Part shown: positions 19,520 to 29,777 of the stretch, in pieces
How the letters are laid out: each line of letters opens with the position of its first letter
Numbering within the stretch: the stretch's first letter is position 1
DNA from: a virus
IMG/VR virus record: IMGVR_UViG_3300047548_000100
Location: 1 to 29,777 of that record
Length of the DNA stretch: 29,777 nucleotides
Strand: one strand, 5' to 3'
Program-made: the position numbers and the translations under genes
Notes under the pieces: generated by a model
The model's database searches: none
Told to the model about the DNA's origin: nothing
What the model saw: the letters and a program-made list of their open reading frames with translations, nothing else

Positions 19520-20680
19520 TTATCGGAAGGAGTACTTCCCTAGATGGCTGTTGCTGATTTTATTCACCACCGAATACCTGAGAGCATCCAGAGCATGGTT
19601 GAAATTGTCCACGGGACGATTAGTTAGCAAATTGTTTTTATCTTCTATGTATTTGTAGTTCCGGAGTTCCTTGATTAGGTTATAACTTCCTTCCGTTGCA
19701 AATAATTTGTATCTCCTGATGATGTCTATGCCTAGATTGATTGCACCCTTCACTACAGGCTTCACGTTCCATCCCATCCGGTAGATTTCTTCAATGCTTT
19801 TCGGCTCTGCTGAATCGGCAAATATTTCATTTGACTTGTCTAGCCCCAGGCTCTGCATTTCTTTTGCTATGTCTTGGTTGGTCATGCCTGTTCGGTAGAT
19901 CAGTTCATCTACATACATCGAGTCATCTAAGATGTAAGTCCGAACCAATGCCGTAGGATCATTGCTAAATCCAAAGTCCAAACCATATGCCACAAGTTTA
20001 GCCTCCTTTGGTATCTGCTTGGTAGTACTGAAGGTATATACTAGAGATCGGCTCTGCCCTCTTTCACCTAGCCCGTAGACCCTCCAATAGTTTTCATCTA
20101 TCTCCTTGAGCCTTTCAATTTCCGCCTTGATCTCTGCCCCTAAAAATGGGTTATCCTTGTAGGTAGTTTGGTAGAATTCTACATCCTTTCTAGGTAGCAC
20201 CTGGTCATAGATCCAATGAAATTCTTCCGAAGGGTTGAAGTCAATGATCACCTTCTCATTCGTTCTGAAAAGCAACTGCTGCCAATCTTCAAAGGTCAAC
20301 TCGTTAGCCTCATTTGCAAAGAGTAGATCTCGCTTTCTACCCCTGATCTTCTGAGGCATATCCAAAGAAATGAATTCAATGGTGTTGCCATTCAACTTGT
20401 ATTCAGATGCTGTCTTTGAGTGGTCATCTTCCGAGTAGATCTCGTGATCCTTGAGGATAGTCAAAAAGTCTCGCATGACAGTACCCCTCAAAGCAGGGTA
20501 TGTCTTTCGGCATATCGTAATGATCTTGCCCGTGTTCTTTTCGCAGTATGAAAAAATTATCCAGAGAAGGATGTTATAGGTCTTCCCTGATCTAGTGCCA
20601 CCTTGCTGTACTATTATCTTGCTTTTGCTACTCTCAAGATGGCGAAATACTTTGTTTGTCTTGATGCTAATTACCTGCAT
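19520..20680 (-). CDS. Large terminase subunit (Terminase_3 type)
   Basis: 386 residues. The packaging ATPase has Walker A GGTRSGKT (27-34), Walker B DLLFANEA with catalytic Glu124, and a coupling-type segment IIDFNPSEEFHWIYD. The RNase H-like nuclease shows its three acidic positions at GLDFG (Asp235), FADSAEP (Asp289) and NHALDALRY (Asp365). It cuts the concatemer and drives DNA into the prohead through the portal. It is a little shorter than many TerL proteins (about 420-480) but all motifs are present. It overlaps the small terminase by 14 bp, the normal pairing. Confidence 0.95.
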   Translation of the reverse strand: MQVISIKTNKVFRHLESSKSKIIVQQGGTRSGKTYNILLWIIFSYCEKNTGKIITICRKTYPALRGTVMRDFLTILKDHEIYSEDDHSKTASEYKLNGNTIEFISLDMPQKIRGRKRDLLFANEANELTFEDWQQLLFRTNEKVIIDFNPSEEFHWIYDQVLPRKDVEFYQTTYKDNPFLGAEIKAEIERLKEIDENYWRVYGLGERGQSRSLVYTFSTTKQIPKEAKLVAYGLDFGFSNDPTALVRTYILDDSMYVDELIYRTGMTNQDIAKEMQSLGLDKSNEIFADSAEPKSIEEIYRMGWNVKPVVKGAINLGIDIIRRYKLFATEGSYNLIKELRNYKYIEDKNNLLTNRPVDNFNHALDALRYSVVNKISNSHLGKYSFR

Positions 20681-21002
20681 CTAAAATGCTAACTTGAAAA
20701 ACTTTTTGACCTTGAGAAGTAATATCTGTTTTTTGCTCAATCTTTCCATGAGCCGAATCCATAAGTTCTCTATAGGCTTGTACATCACCCTCCCTAGCCT
20801 TTTTAATTAGGGCTAATGTCATCAAGTCCTGCTGCTCTAGTTCCTCTGTTTGACCTGTTAAAGGATTCCTTTCCTTCTGCTTTACCTCGAGCCATTCCCT
20901 TACAATAGTAGATCTATTCCTTGATCCTTTAGGTCTACCGCTAGGGTTTCCACTTTCTCCAGGTTGGAATTTATGAGGCTCTATATTTTCAGGGTTTGGC
21001 AT
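20667..21002 (-). CDS. Small terminase subunit (DUF5681-type)
   Basis: 111 residues. The N-terminus FQPGESGNPSGRPKGSRNRS is the signature of DUF5681, found at the start of many small terminase-like proteins and probably binding DNA. The rest is helical (LMTLALIKKAREGDVQAYRE, LMDSAHGKIEQKTDI), as in TerS oligomers. The gene sits directly before and overlaps TerL. It should recognise the packaging start site on phage DNA. Confidence 0.85.
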   Translation of the reverse strand: MPNPENIEPHKFQPGESGNPSGRPKGSRNRSTIVREWLEVKQKERNPLTGQTEELEQQDLMTLALIKKAREGDVQAYRELMDSAHGKIEQKTDITSQGQKVFQVSILDAGN

Positions 21003-21018
21003 CGCTGTATTTTCGTTG

Positions 21019-21213
21019 TTAATCTAGTTTTTGATTTCCTTCTTCTATTACTTCAGGTACTTCTACTTCTTTCTCCTCTACTTTGTTCGGGATTCCTGCA
21101 TCATCTAGCAACTTTTTAAACAAGTACGCTAGTTGAAAGATTCCTTCTTCTTCATCTAGGGTGATACTCACTACCTTCTTAGGGCTGTTGAAATTCAATT
21201 GAAAGTTTGACAT
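21019..21213 (-). CDS. Small acidic hypothetical protein
   Basis: 64 residues. A short N-terminal beta-like stretch (FQLNFNSPKKVVSITLDEEE) leads into a helix (FQLAYLFKKLLDDAG) and a Glu/Val-rich tail ending KLD. No family recognised. It lies 16 bp before the small terminase in the same operon. Confidence 0.6.
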   Translation of the reverse strand: MSNFQLNFNSPKKVVSITLDEEEGIFQLAYLFKKLLDDAGIPNKVEEKEVEVPEVIEEGNQKLD

Positions 21214-21225
21214 GGTTTGTGGTTT

Positions 21226-21513
21226 TTAAAATGGTAGATCGTATTCTTCGGCTTGATAAGGTACAGGTGCAGTAGGCATCTTGTTTGTCTGTGGTGCTGC
21301 TCCTTCTTCCTTCTTGTAATCATTCAGGGTGATGGCAACATCCTTGCCGTACTCATTCGGCTTGTCATAGATATTGATATTCAAGTTCACATACTTCTTC
21401 CCGTTGTAGGTGTATGAATGTGCCTCAGCATCTGATAGGCAGATAGCTGCTGTGATCCATGAATCACTTCTTTTCTTTCCGTTTCCTAGTCTAGTTTTTG
21501 GTTTGTTGTCCAT
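21226..21513 (-). CDS. Possible single-stranded DNA-binding-like protein
   Basis: 95 residues. The N-terminus is basic (KPKTRLGNGKKRSD), followed by strands that could form a small OB-like barrel (WITAAICLSDAEAHSY, KYVNLNINIYDKP, DVAITLND). A linker with Pro, Ala and Gln leads to the C-terminal tip EEYDLPF, very like the acidic -DDLPF/-DDIPF tip by which bacterial SSB recruits partners. It is shorter than standard SSB (about 110-180) and the OB fold is not certain. It lies among replication-side genes before the terminase. Confidence 0.45.
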   Translation of the reverse strand: MDNKPKTRLGNGKKRSDSWITAAICLSDAEAHSYTYNGKKYVNLNINIYDKPNEYGKDVAITLNDYKKEEGAAPQTNKMPTAPVPYQAEEYDLPF

Positions 21514-21521
21514 GTTTTTAT

Positions 21522-21872
21522 TTATTTGGTTTTTCTTCTTCTCTTTATTGGCTTATTTTCTATAACCGGTGGTTGTGTAGTAAATACTACCTGTACCTCT
21601 TGCACTTGTTCCTCTGCTGCTTCTTCAGTTTGCTTTCTGTACCAGGTGGTATTTGCCTCATTCGTATACCACCCATATAGGTAGTTGACTAGTTCTGCTC
21701 TACAGCTACTGCACCAATGGGAGAAGTTGTGCTTCGGATTCACATAGGTAGTGTATAGGTGAATGAGTTCCGCATATACTTCCTTGGAGTAGTTCCGAAT
21801 GAAAGCGTGTTTTTTGTAGCACTCATAGAGTTCAAAGTGCTTCTTGAATAGTTCTAAATCTTCAGGTGTCAT
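21522..21872 (-). CDS. Hypothetical protein with a CxxC motif
   Basis: 116 residues. The first two thirds are helical with many aromatic residues (FKKHFELYECYKKHAFIRNY, VYAELIHLYTTYVN), then HWCSSCRAELVNYLYGWY with a CxxC pair that may bind metal. The tail is Glu/Gln/Val-rich and ends very basic (IKRRRKTK). No family recognised with confidence; similar CSSC-containing proteins are seen in phages of this type as I recall. It overlaps its upstream neighbour by 11 bp. Confidence 0.6.
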   Translation of the reverse strand: MTPEDLELFKKHFELYECYKKHAFIRNYSKEVYAELIHLYTTYVNPKHNFSHWCSSCRAELVNYLYGWYTNEANTTWYRKQTEEAAEEQVQEVQVVFTTQPPVIENKPIKRRRKTK

Positions 21873-22110
21873 ATTTTTCTAGTTCGTTTTTAACTTCATA
21901 CCAATACTTTCTAAATTCATCTCTTGCAGTAAGTCCTGTTTCAGTATTTCTACCTCCCCAAATCATTGCTGCATTACTAAGCATCTCATTAACCAATATT
22001 ATTGCGCATCTGTTGGCAGCGTGTAAATCTCTCACATCATTGTATCCCTCTGTGCATTCACTCATTTTAAACTTGATCAGCAATTGATCAGCCTTTGCCC
22101 TTGGTGTCAT
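21862..22110 (-). CDS. Small hypothetical helical protein
   Basis: 82 residues, helical, starting MTPRAKADQLLIKFKMSE. It has a NRCAIILVNEML core and ends in RKYWYEVKNELEKYDT. Small proteins with this MTP-KA-LI-KF start and a Cys/Ala-Ile core are frequent in Bacteroidota phages as I remember them; function unknown. It overlaps the membrane protein gene upstream by 4 bp. Confidence 0.62.
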   Translation of the reverse strand: MTPRAKADQLLIKFKMSECTEGYNDVRDLHAANRCAIILVNEMLSNAAMIWGGRNTETGLTARDEFRKYWYEVKNELEKYDT

Positions 22111-22373
22111 ATTTCAAACTTATTAGTGAAATGATCCTCCACATTTAGGTAGATGAAGGGTACTATACTACTGATAAATATCGCTTCTAGCAAATCCGTT
22201 TTTAAGATTAGAAAAAACAGGCTAATCCAGAAGGACATACAGAAGGAGCAAGAGAAAGGCTTGACTAGTTTCCGCTTTGTTACCCTTGTGAATACCGCAG
22301 GAATATTTAGGATGTAGAAGTAAATCAAGGTTATCCCAATTGACCCTAGTATACTAGTTGCTGCTTGATACAT
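22107..22373 (-). CDS. Small multi-pass membrane protein
   Basis: 88 residues with about three hydrophobic segments: ILGSIGITLIYFYILNIPAV, FCMSFWISLFFLIL and AIFISSIVPFIYL. Between the first two lies a basic patch (RVTKRKLVKPF) and SCSFC, a CxxC pair at the membrane edge. It might act on the host envelope, for example in superinfection exclusion, but nothing shows that. The start lies within the end of the sigma-like gene (28 bp overlap). Confidence 0.6.
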   Translation of the reverse strand: MYQAATSILGSIGITLIYFYILNIPAVFTRVTKRKLVKPFSCSFCMSFWISLFFLILKTDLLEAIFISSIVPFIYLNVEDHFTNKFEI

Positions 22374-22831
22374 TTTCTGATATTTTTAATTGTTATAAAA
22401 ATTGAAGTATGTGGTATGCCTGTCTGCTTTGATACCTTCCGGACTGACCCGAGTTCCACATACATTTTGAGTATTTCCTGATCGTACCAGTACAGCCCCT
22501 CCACTATCTTTGAAATTGAGTCTGCTACTGCTTGGCTGTTATCGATCTCCTCCTCTTCTTTAATGAACTTGACTATGTCCTCCACGGGTACAAGGGCAGC
22601 ATACATCCTGCCAAACTTCCCATATTTGCTATTAGTTTGATTGCAGCAGATCCTAACAATCCAGAACTTGAAAACCTGCTTTCCTTTGGCTTCTAATTCC
22701 CTGAGTTTTTCCTGATCGTATTCTAGGACTATGACTGCTACCTCTTGCCTTAGATCTTCCCATAGATCTTTTCCTATGTTCTGAAATACATATTTAAACT
22801 CCTGATCATATAGCCATCCAATCGCTTTCAT
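22346..22831 (-). CDS. Sigma-factor-like regulatory protein
   Basis: About 161 residues from the ATG at 22829-22831, chosen because it overlaps the upstream stop as ATGA; a longer frame would add 20 residues inside that gene. The layout is that of a short sigma-70-like protein: a region-2-like helix pair (GKDLWEDLRQEVAVIVLEYD, VFKFWIVRICCNQTNSKYG), an acidic middle, and a region-4-like HTH (GSVRKVSKQTGIPHTSIFIT). Region 2 promoter-melting aromatics are not obvious, so it may be an anti-sigma, adaptor or late-gene activator. It is a good candidate to switch on the terminase and virion genes just downstream. Confidence 0.58.
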   Translation of the reverse strand: MKAIGWLYDQEFKYVFQNIGKDLWEDLRQEVAVIVLEYDQEKLRELEAKGKQVFKFWIVRICCNQTNSKYGKFGRMYAALVPVEDIVKFIKEEEEIDNSQAVADSISKIVEGLYWYDQEILKMYVELGSVRKVSKQTGIPHTSIFITIKNIRKCIKQQLVY

Positions 22832-23079
22832 TTGAGGCTTATTACTTCGCCTGTGGGGAGTCCTGCGTAGTCGCATAGCCATCCGTTCCATTCGAACCTG
22901 ATCTCTTTATCACGGCCTTTAAATGAAGCCGCAAGAAGCCTGATTTGACTCTGTACTAATTCGATACTTTGAAAACTACCTTTGCCCTTATTCATCCACT
23001 TAGACCACTCCCCGCTTGAAAGCCTGTAGCGGATCTCAAGGGAGTAATCTAGTCGGGATTTTGGAAGCATTCTAGGCAT
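22828..23079 (-). CDS. Hypothetical protein
   Basis: 83 residues, basic N-terminus with two possible starts (Met1 and Met4), then YSLEIRYRLSSGEWSKWMNK and a strand-helix pattern ending WNGWLCDYAGLPTGEVISLK. The SSGEWSKW segment resembles a small beta sheet. No family recognised. It overlaps the sigma-like gene by ATGA and so is probably co-translated with it. Confidence 0.58.
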   Translation of the reverse strand: MPRMLPKSRLDYSLEIRYRLSSGEWSKWMNKGKGSFQSIELVQSQIRLLAASFKGRDKEIRFEWNGWLCDYAGLPTGEVISLK

Positions 23080-23081
23080 TT

Positions 23082-23222
23082 CTATTTCTTGTTTTCATCG
23101 AATAAATCTTCACCCTTATAATCAGGAAAATTGTCCTGCATATAGTCTATCCCTTTAACCCAAAAGATCGAGATAATCAAGGATAAAATGAAGATGATTA
23201 AAGCACTGATAAGTAATTCCAT
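23082..23222 (-). CDS. 46-residue single-helix membrane protein
   Basis: ATG at 23220-23222, TAG at 23082-23084. The first 23 residues are one membrane helix (MELLISALIIFILSLIISIF, then W-V-K), the rest is acidic (NFPDYKGEDLFDENKK). It starts just after the XRE gene stop (TAAAAATG) and fills the gap to the next gene. Function unknown; a small inner-membrane effector is possible. Confidence 0.6.
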   Translation of the reverse strand: MELLISALIIFILSLIISIFWVKGIDYMQDNFPDYKGEDLFDENKK

Positions 23223-23224
23223 TT

Positions 23225-23431
23225 TTATACCTGCTTCTTTTCTCGGATGACTACCTCCAGACCTACTGCCTCGCAGATCATTCTAAGATTGAAAAGGCTG
23301 ATAGATTCCCATCCATTCTCAACTTGGTTAATAGGTGCATGGCTTATGCCTAGTTTCTTGCAGAGTTCTAGTTGGGTAAAGCCGCTTTTCTTCCTGGCTT
23401 GTCTTATGAATCTTCCTTCTTCTACGCTCAT
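23225..23431 (-). CDS. XRE-family helix-turn-helix regulator
   Basis: 68 residues from ATG 23429-23431. The longer frame to 23524 was rejected because it overlaps the PP-loop gene and crosses a good promoter. The protein is a single Cro/CI-type HTH: FIRQARKKSGFTQLELCKKL, then GISHAPINQVENGWESISLF, with the recognition helix around HAPINQVENG, and an extra helix ending LEVVIREKKQV. It lacks a dimerisation or cleavage domain, so it is more Cro-like than CI-like. With its own promoter it may control the early operon; a chromosomal-style antitoxin is less likely since no toxin gene is next to it. Confidence 0.82.
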   Translation of the reverse strand: MSVEEGRFIRQARKKSGFTQLELCKKLGISHAPINQVENGWESISLFNLRMICEAVGLEVVIREKKQV

Positions 23432-23448
23432 TGGTTTGTTATTTTCTA

Positions 23449-23476
23449 CGAATATAGGATAAAAATTAATATCCAA
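23449..23476 (-). promoter_or_regulatory. Bacteroidota-type promoter before the XRE gene
   Basis: On the minus strand TTG (23474-23476), a 17-base spacer, then TATATTCG (23449-23456), which differs from TAnnTTTG at one fixed position. It sits in the only gap here, 17 bases before the XRE start and after the PP-loop stop. The same octamer recurs at 28128-28135. Confidence 0.5.
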
Positions 23477-23496
23477 GGTAAAAGGATGAATTTTGT

Positions 23497-24351
23497 CTAA
23501 TCTGTACAGCCTCCCATGTCGCAAGATGTTCCTTCAAAATCAAATTCTCCGGTGAATTCCATTTCGAATTTTTTTCTATAGGGTATCATATCATCATGCC
23601 AAGTATTGTACTTTCCTTTTTCCTCCTGCCTTGCGAACCATTCAAGAATTTGTGGCTCTATATAGTAGTTTTCTTTAATTAGTTTTGGGCTTTTGTGATG
23701 GCAGCCTTGACAATTACTAAATTCAGGGAAAATAAATTCAGGATAATTTTTCCAGTATTTATCAATATCATTTTTTTCAATTCTATTGGTGATCAGAGGA
23801 TATGACTTATAGGAAACTAGTACATTTTTTGACCACTTATTTCTTTTGCTTCCTGTCAAAGATGTATCAGAAGGAAAATCAAAATATTTTTCAACTTTCA
23901 ATTTAGGCTTTTGACCTTTCTTGATTTCGTATGCCCTTTGAAGTTCATCATATCTAAATCCAATCTGCTCTTTAACGATCCCGTATCTGAAATAAAGATA
24001 CTCAGTCATGGGCTTGATCTTCATGTCAGTAGTACAAAATCTTCTGCTCCAGGAAGGTAAGCATCCTGCATTATCAATTACTTCATCAAAACTTTTGCCT
24101 CTTACCCAAATTATCTCTTTCCCTAGTTTTTGTTCTAATTGCATCATTATCTTCAGAGTCTTTTCAGATTCAGCAGATGCAATAAAATCACCGTTTAATT
24201 TGTTTTGAGCATAGGCCAAAACTGTAAGATCCTTTGGCATACAAAGAGGATCATCGATACAAACACAAGCAAAAATATTTACATCAGCAGGATAATGAAT
24301 CGCCATGTAGGAAGACGTTTTGCCTCCGCTTAAACTATTGATAGTTTTCAT
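23497..24351 (-). CDS. PAPS-reductase-like PP-loop protein
   Basis: 284 residues. The PP-loop SGGKTSS (8-14) at the very N-terminus binds ATP or an adenylated substrate. It is followed by CLPSWSRRFCTTDMKIKP (Cys97, Cys106), a segment typical of phage PAPS-reductase / adenine nucleotide alpha hydrolase proteins. Cys214-xx-Cys217 (NCQGCHH) and Cys277 and Cys282 near the end could bind iron-sulfur or zinc. Family members reduce sulfate esters or activate RNA and DNA bases, including DndC-like DNA sulfur modification. No dnd partner genes are seen in the window. Neighbours are a RusA-like gene and a DNA methyltransferase, which favours a nucleic-acid role over sulfur assimilation. Confidence 0.8.
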   Translation of the reverse strand: MKTINSLSGGKTSSYMAIHYPADVNIFACVCIDDPLCMPKDLTVLAYAQNKLNGDFIASAESEKTLKIMMQLEQKLGKEIIWVRGKSFDEVIDNAGCLPSWSRRFCTTDMKIKPMTEYLYFRYGIVKEQIGFRYDELQRAYEIKKGQKPKLKVEKYFDFPSDTSLTGSKRNKWSKNVLVSYKSYPLITNRIEKNDIDKYWKNYPEFIFPEFSNCQGCHHKSPKLIKENYYIEPQILEWFARQEEKGKYNTWHDDMIPYRKKFEMEFTGEFDFEGTSCDMGGCTD

Positions 24352-24353
24352 AT

Positions 24354-24695
24354 TTAAAAAGGTAACATTTTATAAATTCCCATTTGTATAAATTCCTCTC
24401 CCTTCTTCACTATGCACTTCCTGACATTTAACTCAAATACCATTTTATCATTAAAGCCGTACTTCTTCTGTGCTAGGTCTATCAAGGGCTTGCAGGGATT
24501 ATCTATGTCCGCTGCCTTGCTACTGAATCCGAAGAAGAACTCAATCCTTAGCATATCTGTTGAATCAATCTTACCGGCAGGCATCATAAAAAGCATAGTC
24601 TTTTCGTACTCCCTGTATGCTGCTGATTTGATCTTCCTACCTAGAAATGCCCCATTGACTGAAAGAGGCTTTTCATTGATCTTGAATTGTATCAT
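24354..24695 (-). CDS. rusA: RusA-like Holliday junction resolvase
   Basis: 113 residues from the ATG at 24693-24695, which overlaps the upstream TGA (ATGA); a TTG two codons earlier is less likely. The pattern fits RusA: SVNGAFLGRKIKSAAYREYE near the start, then AADIDNPCKPLIDLA with Asp63, Asp65, Asn66, Lys69 and Asp73, and FNDKMVFELNVRKCIVKKGE with Asp83. RusA homodimers cut four-way junctions, here probably to resolve recombining or replicating phage DNA before packaging. Length is close to the usual 115-120. The C-terminus is KMLPF. Confidence 0.78.
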   Translation of the reverse strand: MIQFKINEKPLSVNGAFLGRKIKSAAYREYEKTMLFMMPAGKIDSTDMLRIEFFFGFSSKAADIDNPCKPLIDLAQKKYGFNDKMVFELNVRKCIVKKGEEFIQMGIYKMLPF

Positions 24696-24868
24696 CTGCA
24701 AGCCTTATAGATTAGATCCATCCCTATAGTGTACAGGGCTACGATCACCATGAAAAGAAAGCCTACTTCAAATTCAAAATGCAGCAGGGTAAAGATCGAA
24801 AGCAAGGTAGACTGTATGCTGAATAGATCCTGCTTTGAAGGTGTGAAACTTTTGAGTATTTTTTTCAT
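24692..24868 (-). CDS. 58-residue membrane protein
   Basis: ATG at 24866-24868, TGA at 24692-24694, ATGA overlap with the RusA-like gene. A basic start (MKKILKSFTPSKQDL) leads to two hydrophobic segments: SIQSTLLSIFTLLHFEFEVG and FLFMVIVALYTIGM. Likely a small inner-membrane hairpin. No family recognised; it lies 3 bp after the methyltransferase stop. Confidence 0.6.
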   Translation of the reverse strand: MKKILKSFTPSKQDLFSIQSTLLSIFTLLHFEFEVGFLFMVIVALYTIGMDLIYKACR

Positions 24869-24871
24869 TTT

Positions 24872-25951
24872 TTAAATTTTTGAAAGCCATTGTGAGTAAA
24901 TTTCTGTAGCAATTTGTGCAGTCATTACAGGAGGTACAGACATCCCTACTAAATAAATTACTTTATTTTTTTTGAAATCATAATCTAATGGATAAGTTCC
25001 TATCATTTTTATTTCATTCTCTTCTATTCTGTACGGAACATCTTTTTTAACGTGTTCAGATTCATCATTTGCACATAAAGTCAATGACACCTTTTCATCA
25101 TCTATAAATTTTAACCCGAATCTATTTATTTTATTATTCAATCTCATATTAATTTCTCCGAAATCATTATCTGTAGGAAGTCTTTCTTCCCAAAGTAATC
25201 TGGTCTGACAAGTCAATTCTCTTCCCATGATTCCTGTTTTTAATTCTTTATAAACTATTTCAGGTTCATCAAAATTTAAACTTAATTTTGGCAGAGATGT
25301 GAAAAAATCAACTTGTTGAAGAAAAGGCTTTGCAAGATCTTTTCTCAAGCAAATAAAGAATACTCTTTCCCTTCTTTGTGGCACCCCCATTTTTGAAGCA
25401 TCAAGTAGCCAATGCTGGCAGTAGTATCCTGCCTGGTCAAACTGCTTATAAATTTTTTTAACATACTCAATAGCATTCCCTAGAAGTAATCCCTTAACAT
25501 TCTCAGCCACTACTACTTTTGGCTGTAGTTTTTTTGCTAAATCAATAAAATCAAAAAACAAAGTATCAAGGACTTGATCAGCCTGGCCTTCTCTAAATTT
25601 CTTTTCCTTTCCCCAATCGGATTCCCTATTCCCTGCCATAGAAAATGAACTGCATGGAGGTGATCCATCTAGTATGTCAAGGTTATAAAGTTCTTCTGGA
25701 AGATCCTCTCTAAGTTTGAACGTTTGGATACCCTCAAGAAAACAATACTTTGGATTGTGATTTTCCTTGTATGCTTCCATCATTTTAGGATCAATTTCAT
25801 TGCATCCTAGTACATCAAACCCGGCTAACTTGTAGCCCATTGTAGAGCCTCCACCGCAGGCAAAGCAGGAAAAAACTTTTCCTTTATCCTTGGTAAATAC
25901 TGCATCCTTTAGATTCCATTTGTACGGGAATCTGTGCTTATTGTCTTTCAT
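24872..25951 (-). CDS. DNA (cytosine-5) methyltransferase
   Basis: 359 residues with the ordered C5-MTase motifs: I, FSCFACGGGSTMGYKLAGF (27-45), with Gly-rich SAM loop; IV, GSPPCSSFS with catalytic Cys100; VI, AENV with Glu150; VIII, QRRERVFF (192-199); X, LVGMSVPPVMTAQIATEI near the C-terminus. The target-recognition region lies between VIII and X (about 210-310) and has no obvious relative. No restriction enzyme gene is adjacent, so it is an orphan that may protect phage DNA from host enzymes or mark it. Coding lies between helicase and small membrane protein in the replication block. Confidence 0.93.
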   Translation of the reverse strand: MKDNKHRFPYKWNLKDAVFTKDKGKVFSCFACGGGSTMGYKLAGFDVLGCNEIDPKMMEAYKENHNPKYCFLEGIQTFKLREDLPEELYNLDILDGSPPCSSFSMAGNRESDWGKEKKFREGQADQVLDTLFFDFIDLAKKLQPKVVVAENVKGLLLGNAIEYVKKIYKQFDQAGYYCQHWLLDASKMGVPQRRERVFFICLRKDLAKPFLQQVDFFTSLPKLSLNFDEPEIVYKELKTGIMGRELTCQTRLLWEERLPTDNDFGEINMRLNNKINRFGLKFIDDEKVSLTLCANDESEHVKKDVPYRIEENEIKMIGTYPLDYDFKKNKVIYLVGMSVPPVMTAQIATEIYSQWLSKI

Positions 25952-27004
25952 TTAAAATGGTGCGTTTATTTCTTGATTGAATTCAAAATCTTCTAGTCCA
26001 GATCTTTGGAACTTCTCCACTCTTGGCTCAGGTACTGGTTGAGCCTTTGCATTCTCAAAGTAGTCAAAGCCATCCTTCCCCATGTACCTATTTTTCTTTC
26101 TATTGAAGTCTATCTCAATTTCAAAAGGTACACCTACCAATTTCTGCTTTTTGATCTTATCCGTTTTAATAATCACGGTTGTATCATTTGGATCAGTAGC
26201 CCTGTTCGGTCTCCATACTGAGATAGAATTATCCGTAGAGTCTGCAAATGTTCCACCGCCTTTGATTTGGTATAGGCTAGGTGGAGGGTAGTTTCCATCC
26301 TTCTCCTTTCTAGGTGTAGTTTGGTGCATGACTAGGTGATAGGACACATTATTCTTCCGTGTGAAGTTGATCCTATCCATCATAAACCTAGAAGCGTACA
26401 GGTGTTCAGGCTCTCCTGCTGTCATCTCATGCCTAATCTTGATGTATGGATCTACAACTACCGCCTTGACATCTTTCTCCCAAACTAGGAATTCAAAGAC
26501 TGATTCAATCTGCTCGATAGTAAAATCAGGCACCCCGTTCTTTTCCGGATAGACAAAGTAGAAAGAGTCCTTCACCATGTCAAAAGCCTTGAGATATTCC
26601 TGCTCAGATACATCAAAATTCTTGTAGAATCTATCCGTACTTTTTCCAAGAATAGTGTGGATGATGTCATCAAAAAACTCATCCGGAGGGTAGTTTTCAG
26701 GGCTGAAGAAAGCGAACTTCCAACCTTCATTTATTGCCTTTAGTACGCAGAGAAAAATTAGGAACTGGCTTTTCCCTTCATTGTTGTATCCTGTCCACAG
26801 GTTGAATTCTCCTGCCTTCCAAGACCACATTTTATTCTGTATGCCTCCACTGCTGATTTGGTCAATGTCCCTTACATAGGTCTTCGATCCTGCCTCCTTA
26901 CCTTTCCTGAAGTTTTGAAGCATTGAATCTCTCTGCCCCGCAAAGGTTTTGATAGATGCCTCGCAGAAGTCCAGGTCAAAGATCTTATCTGTTTTCTTTT
27001 TCAT
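25952..27004 (-). CDS. DnaB/RecA-like replicative ATPase (helicase core)
   Basis: 350 residues. Walker A is GYNNEGKS (72-79), Walker B VVVDPY (Asp185), the sensor-like VMHQTTPR has His227-Gln228, and IKGGGTFADSTDN with the following SISVWR (247-265) is the DnaB motif 4 region that contacts DNA. The fold looks like the C-terminal domain of DnaB-type helicase with a short N-terminus and no primase or TOPRIM part. It should unwind the replication fork after loading by the initiator two genes upstream. The tail ends EFNQEINAPF, acidic and ending Pro-Phe like SSB tips. It overlaps the preceding gene by ATGA. Confidence 0.82.
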   Translation of the reverse strand: MKKKTDKIFDLDFCEASIKTFAGQRDSMLQNFRKGKEAGSKTYVRDIDQISSGGIQNKMWSWKAGEFNLWTGYNNEGKSQFLIFLCVLKAINEGWKFAFFSPENYPPDEFFDDIIHTILGKSTDRFYKNFDVSEQEYLKAFDMVKDSFYFVYPEKNGVPDFTIEQIESVFEFLVWEKDVKAVVVDPYIKIRHEMTAGEPEHLYASRFMMDRINFTRKNNVSYHLVMHQTTPRKEKDGNYPPPSLYQIKGGGTFADSTDNSISVWRPNRATDPNDTTVIIKTDKIKKQKLVGVPFEIEIDFNRKKNRYMGKDGFDYFENAKAQPVPEPRVEKFQRSGLEDFEFNQEINAPF

Positions 27005-27309
27005 TCAGCAAAGTGTTTGTCTATGTTTTCCTTCATTTCTTGATAGGCATGATTTCTTTCTGCTACATCCCTGAACCATTGCTTCTCAAATTGATTCCTG
27101 ATCCTCATTTCATCTTGAAGCATCAAGGTAGTACCTTTTACCTCATAATCCATGATATTGATAAGATTTATATACTTTTTTTGTAAGGAATAGAGCCTCT
27201 TCAAGTTTACTTCAATCAATGCCCAGTTCTTAGTCTTCTGTGCCTGTACTATCATTCCCCAAATATCCCTATTCAGGTCATTCATTTTCTGTATGTCTTT
27301 CGTTTCCAT
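27001..27309 (-). CDS. Small helical protein between initiator and helicase
   Basis: About 102 residues from ATG 27307-27309, chosen because it overlaps the initiator stop as TAATG; a GTG two codons earlier is the alternative. Helical throughout, with DLNRDIWGMIVQAQKTKNWA and a charged C-terminus (QEMKENIDKHFAE). No family recognised. Its place between initiator and helicase is where helicase loaders are often found, but it lacks a Walker motif, so that role is only a guess. Confidence 0.6.
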   Translation of the reverse strand: METKDIQKMNDLNRDIWGMIVQAQKTKNWALIEVNLKRLYSLQKKYINLINIMDYEVKGTTLMLQDEMRIRNQFEKQWFRDVAERNHAYQEMKENIDKHFAE

Positions 27310-28022
27310 TACCACCAGTTATCTTCTATAGTTGACTTTGCGTATTTAGGCTTATGTACTTCTTTGCTTTCGCTGTATCCTGTGCTTGCATTATTCTTCA
27401 GGTAGAGATTGAAGGAGTTCTGTGCTTTGCTAATAGTCATTGCTTCTCCTTCCTTCAGGATCTTCCAATTCTTAAATGCTTCCTTTACCTTCTTTTCATC
27501 TAGGTTGTAGATGTATTGCATTCTAATAAAGAAAGATCTTTGCATTGGCTTTTCCTTACCCATCTCTTCTTCTACTTCATCCAAAGAAATCAAAGTCTCT
27601 TTACTTATTTCATTCTTTAATTCTTTTACTTCTTTAGTTGGTTTCACTTGCGTTTCACTTGCGTTTCGTGTGCGTTTCACTTGCGTTTCACTATCGTTTC
27701 GTTCACCTTGGTAAGTATCATATTTACAGATAGTTAGCCGTGTCGTAACTGTTTCGCTTTTTAGTACGATCATTGAATCTTTTTCAAGCATTTTTAAAAA
27801 CCTCAAAACCTTAGACTTATTGATTTTCCATCTATTCGCCCAAGTTTCATAGGAGTAAATTACCTCACCCCTATTAACTTCTAGAAGTTGACCCTTAATC
27901 AAAACCTTCTTTGGCTCTATGTTAGCCGACATTAAAATGTCAAGCCACCATTTTAAATACTCCGGCTTTGACCAGACCCAATGCTCCTGAAGTTGTCTGT
28001 GTACTTTAATCCATCCGCTCAT
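27309..28022 (-). CDS. Replication initiator with winged-helix N-terminus
   Basis: 237 residues. Residues about 1-105 resemble the DnaD/phage-O-like winged-helix: MSGWIKVHRQLQEHWVWSKP, LEVNRGEVIYSYETWANRWK, INKSKVLRFLKMLEKDSMIV. Residues about 106-127 are encoded by the 11-bp repeats and show an 11-residue protein repeat (SETQVK twice). Residues about 155-237 are a helical part (FFIRMQYIYNLDEKKVKEAF) and a linker ending IEDNWW, where helicase or loader contact is likely. The origin inside the initiator gene, followed by a helicase gene, is the lambda O/P style layout. Translation starts 11 bp after an intrinsic terminator. Confidence 0.78.
   Translation of the reverse strand: MSGWIKVHRQLQEHWVWSKPEYLKWWLDILMSANIEPKKVLIKGQLLEVNRGEVIYSYETWANRWKINKSKVLRFLKMLEKDSMIVLKSETVTTRLTICKYDTYQGERNDSETQVKRTRNASETQVKPTKEVKELKNEISKETLISLDEVEEEMGKEKPMQRSFFIRMQYIYNLDEKKVKEAFKNWKILKEGEAMTISKAQNSFNLYLKNNASTGYSESKEVHKPKYAKSTIEDNWW
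27642..27707. repeat. Six tandem 11-bp iterons, probable replication origin
   Basis: Plus-strand units: TTTCACTTGCG (27642-27652), same (27653-27663), TTTCGTGTGCG (27664-27674), TTTCACTTGCG (27675-27685), TTTCACTATCG (27686-27696) and a weaker TTTCGTTCACC (27697-27707). The 11-bp spacing puts the sites on one DNA face. An AT-rich stretch at 27601-27640 next to it could melt. The array lies inside the initiator gene, as in lambda. Confidence 0.8.
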
Positions 28023-28032
28023 TTTTTGAAAA

Positions 28033-28066
28033 TAAAAAAGCCCGACAGGTGGAAGACTGCCAGGCT
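28033..28066 (-). terminator. Intrinsic terminator just upstream of the initiator gene
   Basis: Minus-strand stem AGCCTGGCAG / CTGTCGGGCT (10 pairs with two G-T wobbles), loop TCTTCCAC, then six T (28034-28039). Only 11 bases separate it from the initiator ATG, so no promoter fits between and the replication genes must be reached by read-through. Confidence 0.85.
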
Positions 28067-28127
28067 CAGGTTAGTTTTAACCTATGGAATCATTCTCGCT
28101 TCCACACAGGAATGATTCTTGAATGCA
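28033..28127 (-). ncRNA. Structured leader RNA with three hairpins and a kissing loop
   Basis: Read on the minus strand: hairpin 1, GAATCATTC (28118-28110) and GAATGATTC (28095-28087), 9 perfect pairs, 14-base loop; hairpin 2, GGTTA-AAAC-TAACC (28082-28069); hairpin 3, the terminator. Loop 1 contains GTGGAAG (28105-28099) and loop 3 contains CTTCCAC (28055-28049), perfectly complementary over 7 bases. No ORF crosses it. A TATATTCG box at 28128-28135 lies directly upstream but lacks a clear -33 TTG, so the RNA may instead be part of the early transcript. It may control read-through into the replication operon or be a separate small RNA. I do not recognise it as a known family. Confidence 0.6.
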
Positions 28128-28148
28128 CGAATATAATACTTTTTTTAA

Positions 28149-28298
28149 TTATCCTACTAGATGCCTTTTTTTTAATTCAGCAAAGACAGTCCCGTAGCAT
28201 CTACCTAATTCAATAGCAATCACCTTTATCGGCTTTCTATCCTGCCAACCTTCAAAGATCATCTGCTTTTCCTCTTCAGTTACTCTCCTTCTTTTCAT
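28149..28298 (-). CDS. 49-residue HTH-like protein
   Basis: ATG at 28296-28298, TAA at 28149-28151. The start is very basic (MKRRRVTEEEKQMIFEGWQD), then a helix-turn-helix-like stretch (KPIKVIAIELGRCYGTVFAE) and a basic end (LKKRHLVG). It looks like a minimal homeodomain-like DNA-binding protein. It overlaps the preceding gene by 23 bp and its stop lies just before the leader RNA, so it could be the regulator of that element. Confidence 0.62.
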   Translation of the reverse strand: MKRRRVTEEEKQMIFEGWQDRKPIKVIAIELGRCYGTVFAELKKRHLVG

Positions 28299-28641
28299 GC
28301 TTATCTAGGATTTCTTCTACTGCATTCAGGCAATCATGGAAGATAGATCCTCCTTCATCGATGGCCGTGTGCAGTCTTTCGAATAAGGTCACGAATTCGT
28401 GAAACTGCTTGATAGTCGCTTCGCCATTATCGTACCCCTCAAGGTATCTGAATGCCTGTGTAGACTTCCGCTTCAAGGCATTGATCATGTTCTTGTGCTT
28501 TGTCTGTAGATCCAGGTCAAAGAACTTGAGCATAGATACATCCTCATAGTAGTCTAGCATGATCTCCTGCAGGGCTAGGTACACCAAGTACTTTTGGGTA
28601 GACCTGTGGTTTAGTTCGGTGATGATTTCTTCTCTGGTCAT
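28276..28641 (-). CDS. Hypothetical helical early protein
   Basis: 121 residues, nearly all helix: QKYLVYLALQEIMLDYYEDV, then TKHKNMINALKRKSTQAFRY and a basic-acidic tail (LDKHEKKESN). No family recognised with confidence; no metal or nucleotide motif. Early position and small size suggest a host-takeover or regulatory factor, which is inference only. ATGA overlap with the HTH gene upstream. Confidence 0.62.
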   Translation of the reverse strand: MTREEIITELNHRSTQKYLVYLALQEIMLDYYEDVSMLKFFDLDLQTKHKNMINALKRKSTQAFRYLEGYDNGEATIKQFHEFVTLFERLHTAIDEGGSIFHDCLNAVEEILDKHEKKESN

Positions 28642-28844
28642 TTGTTCAGGTAGTATTTTGCTATACGTTTATCATTTACATTCACCATGTCGGTGACAAT
28701 GTCAAGACCTTCCTCTCGTAGGTTGGCAATCCTAGCAGATAGCCGGAAGCATCCGAACATATTCAAGGCATCTAGTTGAGTGATCGAGTAGCCATTCAAT
28801 AGCCACCCCTTGATCAAGGCAGTCTGTGAGTCTGTGGATTTCAT
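28638..28844 (-). CDS. HTH_39-type DNA-binding protein
   Basis: 68 residues. The stretch LIKGWLLNGYSITQLDALNM followed by FGCFRLSARIANLREEGLDI fits the HTH_39 pattern found in many phages (a helix, ITxxDAL turn, and a basic recognition helix RLSARIANLR). It ends basic (DKRIAKYYLNK). It overlaps both neighbours by 4 bp and belongs to the early cluster. Confidence 0.72.
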   Translation of the reverse strand: MKSTDSQTALIKGWLLNGYSITQLDALNMFGCFRLSARIANLREEGLDIVTDMVNVNDKRIAKYYLNK

Positions 28845-29146
28845 AGCGAGTAGATTAATTTTTTAGCAGCATTTAGGTGTGAAGTGAATTCCTCTTCTGT
28901 GATCTCTTCTAGGTTATCAGCCTTGAGAATGTAGGTCACATACCTGATGTGCTCCACCTTGATAGATGGCCACAATTCAAGTGCTACCAAGTTATCTAGT
29001 TTATCAGTAAAGTAGTTAACTGCTATGACTGCCGAATCTGAAAGCAGTTTGTAGTGATAGTACTTATTCAAGGTGAAGTACTTTGGGATAGAGACTTCGC
29101 TCTCTACTTCCTGAGTTTGTGTGATTTTGATTTTGAAATTTTCCAT
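28841..29146 (-). CDS. Hypothetical early protein
   Basis: 101 residues, beta-rich at first (FKIKITQTQEVESEVSIPKY), then helix and strands (LVALELWPSIKVEHIRYVTY) and a C-terminal helix (TSHLNAAKKLIYSL). Soluble and acidic in parts. No known family; small proteins with an ITEEEF segment near the end recur in phages as I remember. ATGA overlap with the HTH gene downstream. Confidence 0.6.
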   Translation of the reverse strand: MENFKIKITQTQEVESEVSIPKYFTLNKYYHYKLLSDSAVIAVNYFTDKLDNLVALELWPSIKVEHIRYVTYILKADNLEEITEEEFTSHLNAAKKLIYSL

Positions 29147-29166
29147 AGGTGTTTTTGGTGTTTAGA

Positions 29167-29265
29167 TTAAAGTTTCATTCCTAGCATATATCCAAGTGCA
29201 AAGATTGGAGACATTGCCACGATAAAATAGATGATTTTGCCTGTGATTTGAAGTGCTTTTTTCAT
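29167..29265 (-). CDS. 32-residue membrane peptide
   Basis: ATG at 29263-29265, TAA at 29167-29169. The sequence is MKKALQITGKIIYFIVAMSP followed by IFALGYMLGMKL: two lysines, then a single hydrophobic helix. It is preceded by a UUCG hairpin and followed 20 bp later by the next gene. It may be a small membrane effector of early infection. Short length keeps confidence moderate. Confidence 0.5.
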   Translation of the reverse strand: MKKALQITGKIIYFIVAMSPIFALGYMLGMKL

Positions 29266-29280
29266 GGTGTAGAAAGTTAT

Positions 29281-29294
29281 GCCCCCGAAGGGGC
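29281..29294. promoter_or_regulatory. GC-rich tetraloop hairpin
   Basis: GCCCC / GGGGC arms around CGAA on the plus strand (UUCG on the minus strand). As minus RNA it is the very stable C(UUCG)G hairpin before the 32-residue gene; as plus RNA it is followed by TTTT and could stop antisense transcription. Confidence 0.55.
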
Positions 29295-29303
29295 TTTTGA
29301 TTA

Positions 29304-29498
29304 TTACTGTGAATCTTCAATAAATGAAATCAAATGATTTGCTATTAGGTACATTACAGCAGTTTGATTTTCATTCCATTCCTTAGCAGGTATCCCGTTA
29401 TCTTTCATAAATTGAATGCAAAAAGGAATAAATGCAGGATTGGAAAACAATTCAGTTCTTTTGTTTACAAAATTTTCGATGTCAAATTGAGTTTTCAT
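29304..29498 (-). CDS. Hypothetical early protein, first gene after the promoter
   Basis: 64 residues, helical, starting MKTQFDIENFVNKRTELFSN and containing FMKDNGIPAKEWNENQTAVM and a hydrophobic LIANHLISFIED end. No family recognised. It is the first complete gene after the promoter at 29534-29564 and its product is therefore likely the earliest made. Confidence 0.62.
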   Translation of the reverse strand: MKTQFDIENFVNKRTELFSNPAFIPFCIQFMKDNGIPAKEWNENQTAVMYLIANHLISFIEDSQ

Positions 29499-29533
29499 AG
29501 TGTGTTTTGGTTAGATGTCCTTGTTTGTTGAGT

Positions 29534-29564
29534 CAAATATCTTAGGAATAAATTAGAAAACAAA
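29534..29564 (-). promoter_or_regulatory. Bacteroidota-type early promoter
   Basis: On the minus strand TTTTG ends with TTG at 29561-29563, then a 19-base spacer, then GATATTTG (29534-29541), which matches TAnnTTTG except for its first base. It lies in the gap between the partial HTH gene (stop 29570) and the first gene (start 29498), giving a leader of about 30 bases. Confidence 0.62.
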
Positions 29565-29569
29565 ATATT

Positions 29570-29777
29570 TCAGCAAAATTTTTGAATTAATTTTTTATTC
29601 CGTGCTTCCTTGATTACCAGAGTGACATTCTTGACAGGCAAATCTAGATCCTCGGCAATTTCATAGTTATTGTAGCCCCAACAGGAAAGGGTTATTATCC
29701 TGTTCACCTGATCCTTTGGCAGAACTTCCATCAAGTTGCTTCTTGGATTGCTCTTATTTACTAGGAGGATCTTATAT
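29570..29777 (-). CDS. HTH-like protein (5' partial at right edge)
   Basis: An open frame enters from the right edge and ends at TGA 29570-29572. Visible: NKSNPRSNLMEVLPKDQVNR, then IITLSCWGYNNYEIAEDLDL and PVKNVTLVIKEARNKKLIQK. The middle reads like a homeodomain or sigma-region-4-like HTH (turn at GYNNYEIAEDLDLP, recognition helix VKNVTLVIKEAR). The true start may be the internal ATG (MEVLPKDQ) or lie beyond the window. A regulator of the early region is likely. Confidence 0.62.
   Translation of the reverse strand, partial: YKILLVNKSNPRSNLMEVLPKDQVNRIITLSCWGYNNYEIAEDLDLPVKNVTLVIKEARNKKLIQKFC

Follow-up and report, generated by a model that had tools for sequence, protein, structure and literature searches.

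The replication genes of the virus in IMG/VR record IMGVR_UViG_3300047548_000100 (positions 1 to 29,777; this whole 29,777-nt stretch of analysed DNA is called the window) are preceded on the minus strand by a leader RNA, in which the loop of the first hairpin is complementary to the loop of an intrinsic terminator. On comparative grounds the loop-loop contact is real, because both loops change together in dozens of relatives. The kiss probably decides whether the replication genes are expressed, and we cautiously favour the reading that the leader is a transcription attenuator of the phage replication operon, built on this loop-loop (kissing) contact.

Leader anatomy

The leader interval occupies positions 28135-28033 of the minus strand, with a predicted RNA of ~95 nt. 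The features of the region are as follows:

28149-28298, minus strand: 49-aa HTH_38 protein, upstream of the promoter
28135-28128, minus strand: promoter -7 element TATATTCG, fitting the Bacteroidota consensus TAnnTTTG
28118-28087, minus strand: hairpin 1, arms GAATCATTC..GAATGATTC, perfect 9 bp, close to the predicted RNA 5' end
28105-28099, minus strand: element A, hairpin 1 loop GUGGAAG (DNA GTGGAAG), 5' half of the kissing helix
28083-28068, minus strand: hairpin 2, spacer hairpin, AGGTTA-AAAC-TAACCT
28067-28038, minus strand: intrinsic terminator hairpin GAGCCTGGCAG-TCTTCCAC-CTGTCGGGCTT, 11 pairs
28055-28049, minus strand: element B, terminator loop CUUCCAC (DNA CTTCCAC), 3' half of the kissing helix
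28039-28029, minus strand: U-tract, 3' of the terminator hairpin (first T run ends at 28034)
27309-28022, minus strand: DnaD-like helicase loader, 237 aa (phrog_2514, E=1.6e-32), the gene presumed to be controlled

Three hairpins and a 7-nt kissing pair had been proposed in a sequence-only reading of this DNA. Direct reading bore them out: loops A and B are exactly complementary over 7 nt (GUGGAAG/CUUCCAC), and the predicted fold (-34.8 kcal/mol, z = -4.8) was equalled by 0/200 shuffles. The stem of hairpin 1, 9 bp in the window, is longer in some relatives. Hairpin 2, present in most leaders of the window's kind (group 1), exists as proposed and has 6 bp in the predicted fold, not the 5 bp given earlier. 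Among seven terminator-like sites in 20000-29777, the leader terminator has the most stem pairs. Its U-tract is separated from the initiator ATG (28022-28020) by ~10 nt, which agrees with the earlier statement that the terminator leaves no room for a promoter before the ATG. A terminator standing between a promoter and the replication genes is likewise supported. Internal promoters may serve the downstream virion and lysis genes, which that reading had made largely dependent on read-through.

When the terminator stem pairs were forbidden in folding, the remaining fold was unchanged and no mutually exclusive antiterminator fold was seen; in the absence of a competing fold, a classical two-state attenuator is not present. 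Further copies of the loop code in the window were chance-level 7-mers inside genes only, and a seqC-like third copy was found neither in the window nor in group 1. A leader peptide was considered and rejected: no conserved ORF was seen, and relatives with GAATAATTCC have lost the ATG found in GAATGATTCC.

Promoter and adjoining genes

The -7 consensus of Bacteroidota promoters is TAnnTTTG (PMC7366714), and a -7 box was found in 95/95 group-1 leaders. In the AT-rich window the motif alone is no rarer than expected by chance, so the box counts as evidence by its fixed place upstream of hairpin 1, not by its rarity. A clear -33 box was not found upstream of the leader. Because the -7 box is conserved in 95/95 relatives, the leader RNA has its own promoter, which the sequence-only reading had not named as such, even though 28128-28135 falls inside the interval that it described. 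The conserved box and the U-tract both lie on the minus strand, and the element makes, by prediction, a self-contained RNA of ~95 nt with an inferred 5' end.

Immediately 5' of the promoter, a C-terminus similar to that of the HTH_38 protein (..LVG-stop) is encoded in 74/95 leaders, and the 49-aa protein is a candidate regulator. The leader was found 5' of three initiator families (DnaD-like, Lin1244_N and DUF6291). The initiator proteins (27309-28022 and relatives) seem modular, their N-terminal domains and C-terminal parts looking recombined among the three families. In L252 and L263, a nuclease-like gene (HSDR_N-like, MANKF..) separates the leader from the DnaD-like gene.

Co-variation of the two loops

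The relatives compared were metagenomic viral contigs. Those found via the initiator protein (34 viral contigs) carry the same leader with varied loops, and complementarity is kept. DNA-pattern scans blind to the terminator yielded 69 distinct stretches; a terminator hairpin was present by the finder's rule in 65/69, and 65/65 of these have at least 7 Watson-Crick loop-loop pairs, while loops of different codes pair over at most 5. The remaining four stretches comprise L162, also a complementary leader, and three chance pattern matches. L190, L196, L229 and L178 matched the DNA pattern by chance and were rejected as leaders. Seven group-1 loop codes were seen, of the form GUNNNAG.

Pair counts were taken from an element-wise alignment (36 distinct rows, picked as complementary), because in the MAFFT alignment the position of the A loop varied with the length of the hairpin 1 loop (short or long). 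As these rows were picked for complementarity, the unbiased test is the 65/65 set, which was not chosen for B. Compensatory changes in stems and loops were looked for in the relatives and were found, strongly favouring the structure first proposed: beside the 65/65 leaders, 18/25 pairs of the 36-row alignment have both-sided changes, with 99.7% of cells paired. Both-sided changes occur in 8/9 pairs of hairpin 1 and in 7/9 core pairs of the terminator, and the pairing was destroyed when the partners were offset by one to three bases. In these rows, chosen as complementary, the kissing helix is paired in 252/252 cells. Both-sided changes affect 3/7 of its pairs, one of which takes all four Watson-Crick forms, and there are zero G-U pairs and zero one-sided changes. 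Where a stem pair changes on one side only, the result is a G-U pair when read on the minus strand, as expected for minus-strand RNA. The clearest example is a natural double mutant: between L100 and L047, the sole difference from hairpin 1 to the U-tract is one base of A and its partner in B.

As a chance control, terminator loops were re-dealt among the other terminators of the related contigs: a partner of at least 7 nt in an upstream hairpin loop was then met in ~0.5% of cases.

Group 2

Group 2 is a separate family with exactly complementary loops of 6 or 7 nt, the lengths of which co-vary. When it was searched without regard to loop letters, complementarity between the loops (7-7 or 6-6 nt) was full or nearly so in 41/43 matches. 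In 35/41 of these group-2 leaders, a third copy of A lies just 5' of the start codon (A-B-C on one strand). A-B complementarity was present in all leaders examined. Within the terminator stem, group-2 leaders (L077, L284-L365) have an AGUA/GAA internal loop that is kept across loop codes and, by eye, resembles a bulged-G (sarcin-ricin-like) motif.

A proposed attenuator of the replication operon

The position of the leader, as far as its sequence tells, speaks strongly for replication-operon attenuation. The layout of an intrinsic-terminator attenuator was found: a promoter, a structured leader, a terminator, and then a gene without another promoter. Since the terminator follows the only promoter nearby and precedes the start codon, read-through is a condition for expression from the leader promoter.

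In the proposed attenuator, hairpin 1 would be transcribed first and B would exit the polymerase ahead of the terminator 3' arm, allowing A to capture B; with A made first and B out before that arm, the kiss can precede the terminator hairpin. The kiss would then gate the terminator (promotion and delay of closure are both possible), most transcripts would stop as the ~95 nt RNA, and the initiator would be supplied by read-through. Against the attenuator reading, a loop-loop kiss alone would not stop the terminator hairpin from forming, an antiterminator fold was not seen, and group 1, to which the window belongs, is without the third copy. The kiss might promote termination or delay it, and might do so in cis or in trans. 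In group 2, B could pair with the third copy beside the start codon, blocking translation.

Initiator attenuation by antisense RNA is known in plasmid pT181. Kissing loops also occur in ColE1 RNA I/RNA II and in purine riboswitches, which share with the leader a short loop-loop contact between hairpins; ColE1 differs by having two RNAs from opposite strands, and the purine riboswitch by placing the contact in the aptamer, not in a terminator loop. In plasmid pIP501, loop-loop pairing with the opposite-strand RNAIII causes premature termination in the initiator leader (PMC4981023). Two loop pairs are reported to be needed in pIP501. Like pIP501 and pT181, the leader would place an initiator gene under premature leader termination with loop-loop pairs decisive; in those plasmids the inhibitor comes from the opposite strand, whereas here both partners are in one RNA. 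Functionally, plasmid initiator attenuation (e.g. pIP501) and the P4 leader RNA system (P4 literature is listed in PMC4825925) come closest. The leader is filed under neither, because both pairing partners belong to the same RNA, the complement of loop A is the loop of the terminator, and a search for lysogeny found no sign of it.

Loop codes and a possible role in trans

The commonest codes (GUGGAAG, GUGAGAG, GUCGGAG and GUGGUAG) each occur 5' of all three initiator families, and the rarer codes 5' of one or two. For the three families, trees of the downstream proteins give at least 7, 6 and 17 code changes, and in L168 and L202 the first 130 aa of the downstream protein are identical and the codes differ. 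Cross-code duplexes are several kcal/mol weaker than matched ones. Rapid code turnover, weak cross-pairing and the third copy of group 2 together suggest that pairing may occur between molecules too.

This bears on the strongest alternative, to which we give a minority chance: a trans-acting leader RNA of the P4 CI / P1 C4 kind, in which the terminated RNA silences the replication operon of the same phage or of a superinfecting phage with the same code. In P4 CI / P1 C4 immunity, the leader of a replication operon yields a small RNA flanked by complementary same-strand segments, and premature termination is the output. Like these systems, the RNA here would arise in a replication-operon leader and have termination as its output; its complementary same-strand segments (A-B, or A-B-C in group 2) resemble P4 seqA-seqB-seqC, and both the fast turnover and the weak cross-code duplexes favour such a role. 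It is unlike them in that the complement lies within the terminator loop itself, group 1 is without a seqC-like copy, no sequence relation was found, and there is no sign of lysogeny. Tyrosine integrase was found in 0/35 records and serine recombinase in 0/33 (records possibly incomplete), and lysogenic immunity is disfavoured because no integrase was found in 35 records.

The trans-acting reading is also weakened by the scarcity of relatives in bacterial genomes. A covariance model applied to 396 genomes of the phylum gave no convincing leader and two weak matches; the one inspected, L367, proved to be a plain terminator whose stem is GCCCGTCAG. A separate weak match, L366 in the L156 genome, sits where an acyl-carrier-like gene meets its neighbour. 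When the genome collection was searched with the initiator, it returned one distant match only, in a Bacteroidetes genome bin; from this match and the promoter type, a Bacteroidota-type host is inferred. In addition, the kissing pairs vary no faster, visibly, than the stems (36-row alignment), which speaks against a role in trans and leaves diversifying selection on the loops unsupported. Because both loops are always together in cis, pairing in trans would face competition from the cis contact.

The attenuator reading can itself be extended, more speculatively, in this direction. Free terminated RNA, carrying A and B, might pair with the A and B of nascent leaders; feedback on read-through as genomes accumulate would then act as copy-number timing, and the loop codes would make it phage-specific. 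If trans action is true, this would be an RNA-coded system of replication control and compatibility in phages without sign of lysogeny.

Other readings of the leader

For HK022 put, action is via the zinc-binding domain of the RNA polymerase beta' subunit. The put RNA is ~70 nt, has two stem-loops and stays bound to RNA polymerase (PMC9378689). The comparison with put made in the sequence-only reading holds as a broad functional idea, both being structured phage leader RNAs near a promoter that would affect termination, and fails in the particulars: the leader is ~95 nt with three hairpins, the last of which is a terminator, and no kissing terminator loop is described for put. Put and P4 immunity are taken as functional analogies, not as memberships. 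We consider it improbable that the kissed, folded leader binds RNA polymerase in put-like cis antitermination and so secures passage through its own and later terminators. The leader does adjoin the promoter upstream of long co-directional operons, and its shape is conserved while the loop letters vary; however, one partner of the kiss is the loop of the terminator, which does not exist until the termination point is reached, and put is described without a terminator of its own (PMC9378689).

A similarly low probability attaches to an ordinary terminated small RNA or insulator, in which the kiss merely compacts and protects the RNA and the initiator comes from basal read-through. A strong terminator and an own promoter would suit it, but it leaves unexplained both the repeated siting right before replication initiators and HNH-type genes and the third copy of the loop that group 2 has at its start codon. 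That A and B act as a DNA-level inverted repeat (operator or recombination site), not as RNA, is scarcely credible: they are inverted repeats in the DNA, but each occupies the loop of a co-varying hairpin, stem changes on one side only are minus-strand G-U as in RNA, and the loop lengths of group 2 co-vary.

Novelty and rarer architectures

With Rfam 15, no family reached the gathering cut-off in the window; the best match, to the Rfam trpB motif (22.8 bits vs a cut-off of 59, E=0.2-0.8), was dismissed as chance, and 11 relatives gave nothing up to E=0.5. Cultured phages, searched at the DNA level for the initiator region and for three leaders, gave no real match and no close relative; distant DnaD relatives occur in phages of other hosts. 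The novelty of the leader is judged against Rfam and the open-access literature searched. It is a compact RNA device outside Rfam, ahead of replication genes in many environmental Bacteroidota-type phages, in which gene control is little known. Matched and re-coded loops occur naturally, so that ready-made double mutants are available for testing what the loop-loop contact does in termination.

Quite tentatively, the leaders may represent a kind of phage regulatory RNA not described before, defined by an interchangeable code of 6-9 nt that is matched between the loop of an upstream hairpin and that of the terminator. As a self-addressed counter, such an RNA would time or cap replication, with code turnover keeping co-infecting relatives from mutual silencing.

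A sequence-blind scan revealed further types with loop pairs of 7-9 bp (L079, L084, L085, L132, L133, L147). Five of these contigs (L079, L084, L085, L133, L147) share a third architecture, in which the loops pair over 8-9 bp and the terminator contains a conserved, purine-rich internal loop; it is located 5' of a small ORF or the DnaD-like gene. Another type was found by the same scan 5' of HNH-like genes (L283, L235). Kissing-terminator leaders with their own code lie at ~3312-3205 (minus strand) in L283, near minus-strand position 6229 in L235 and at ~3714 (plus strand) in L313, immediately 5' of ORFs starting MEIWK.. (HNH/NUMOD4-like by eye). These three contigs carry a replication leader as well, and the two leaders of L283 have different codes.
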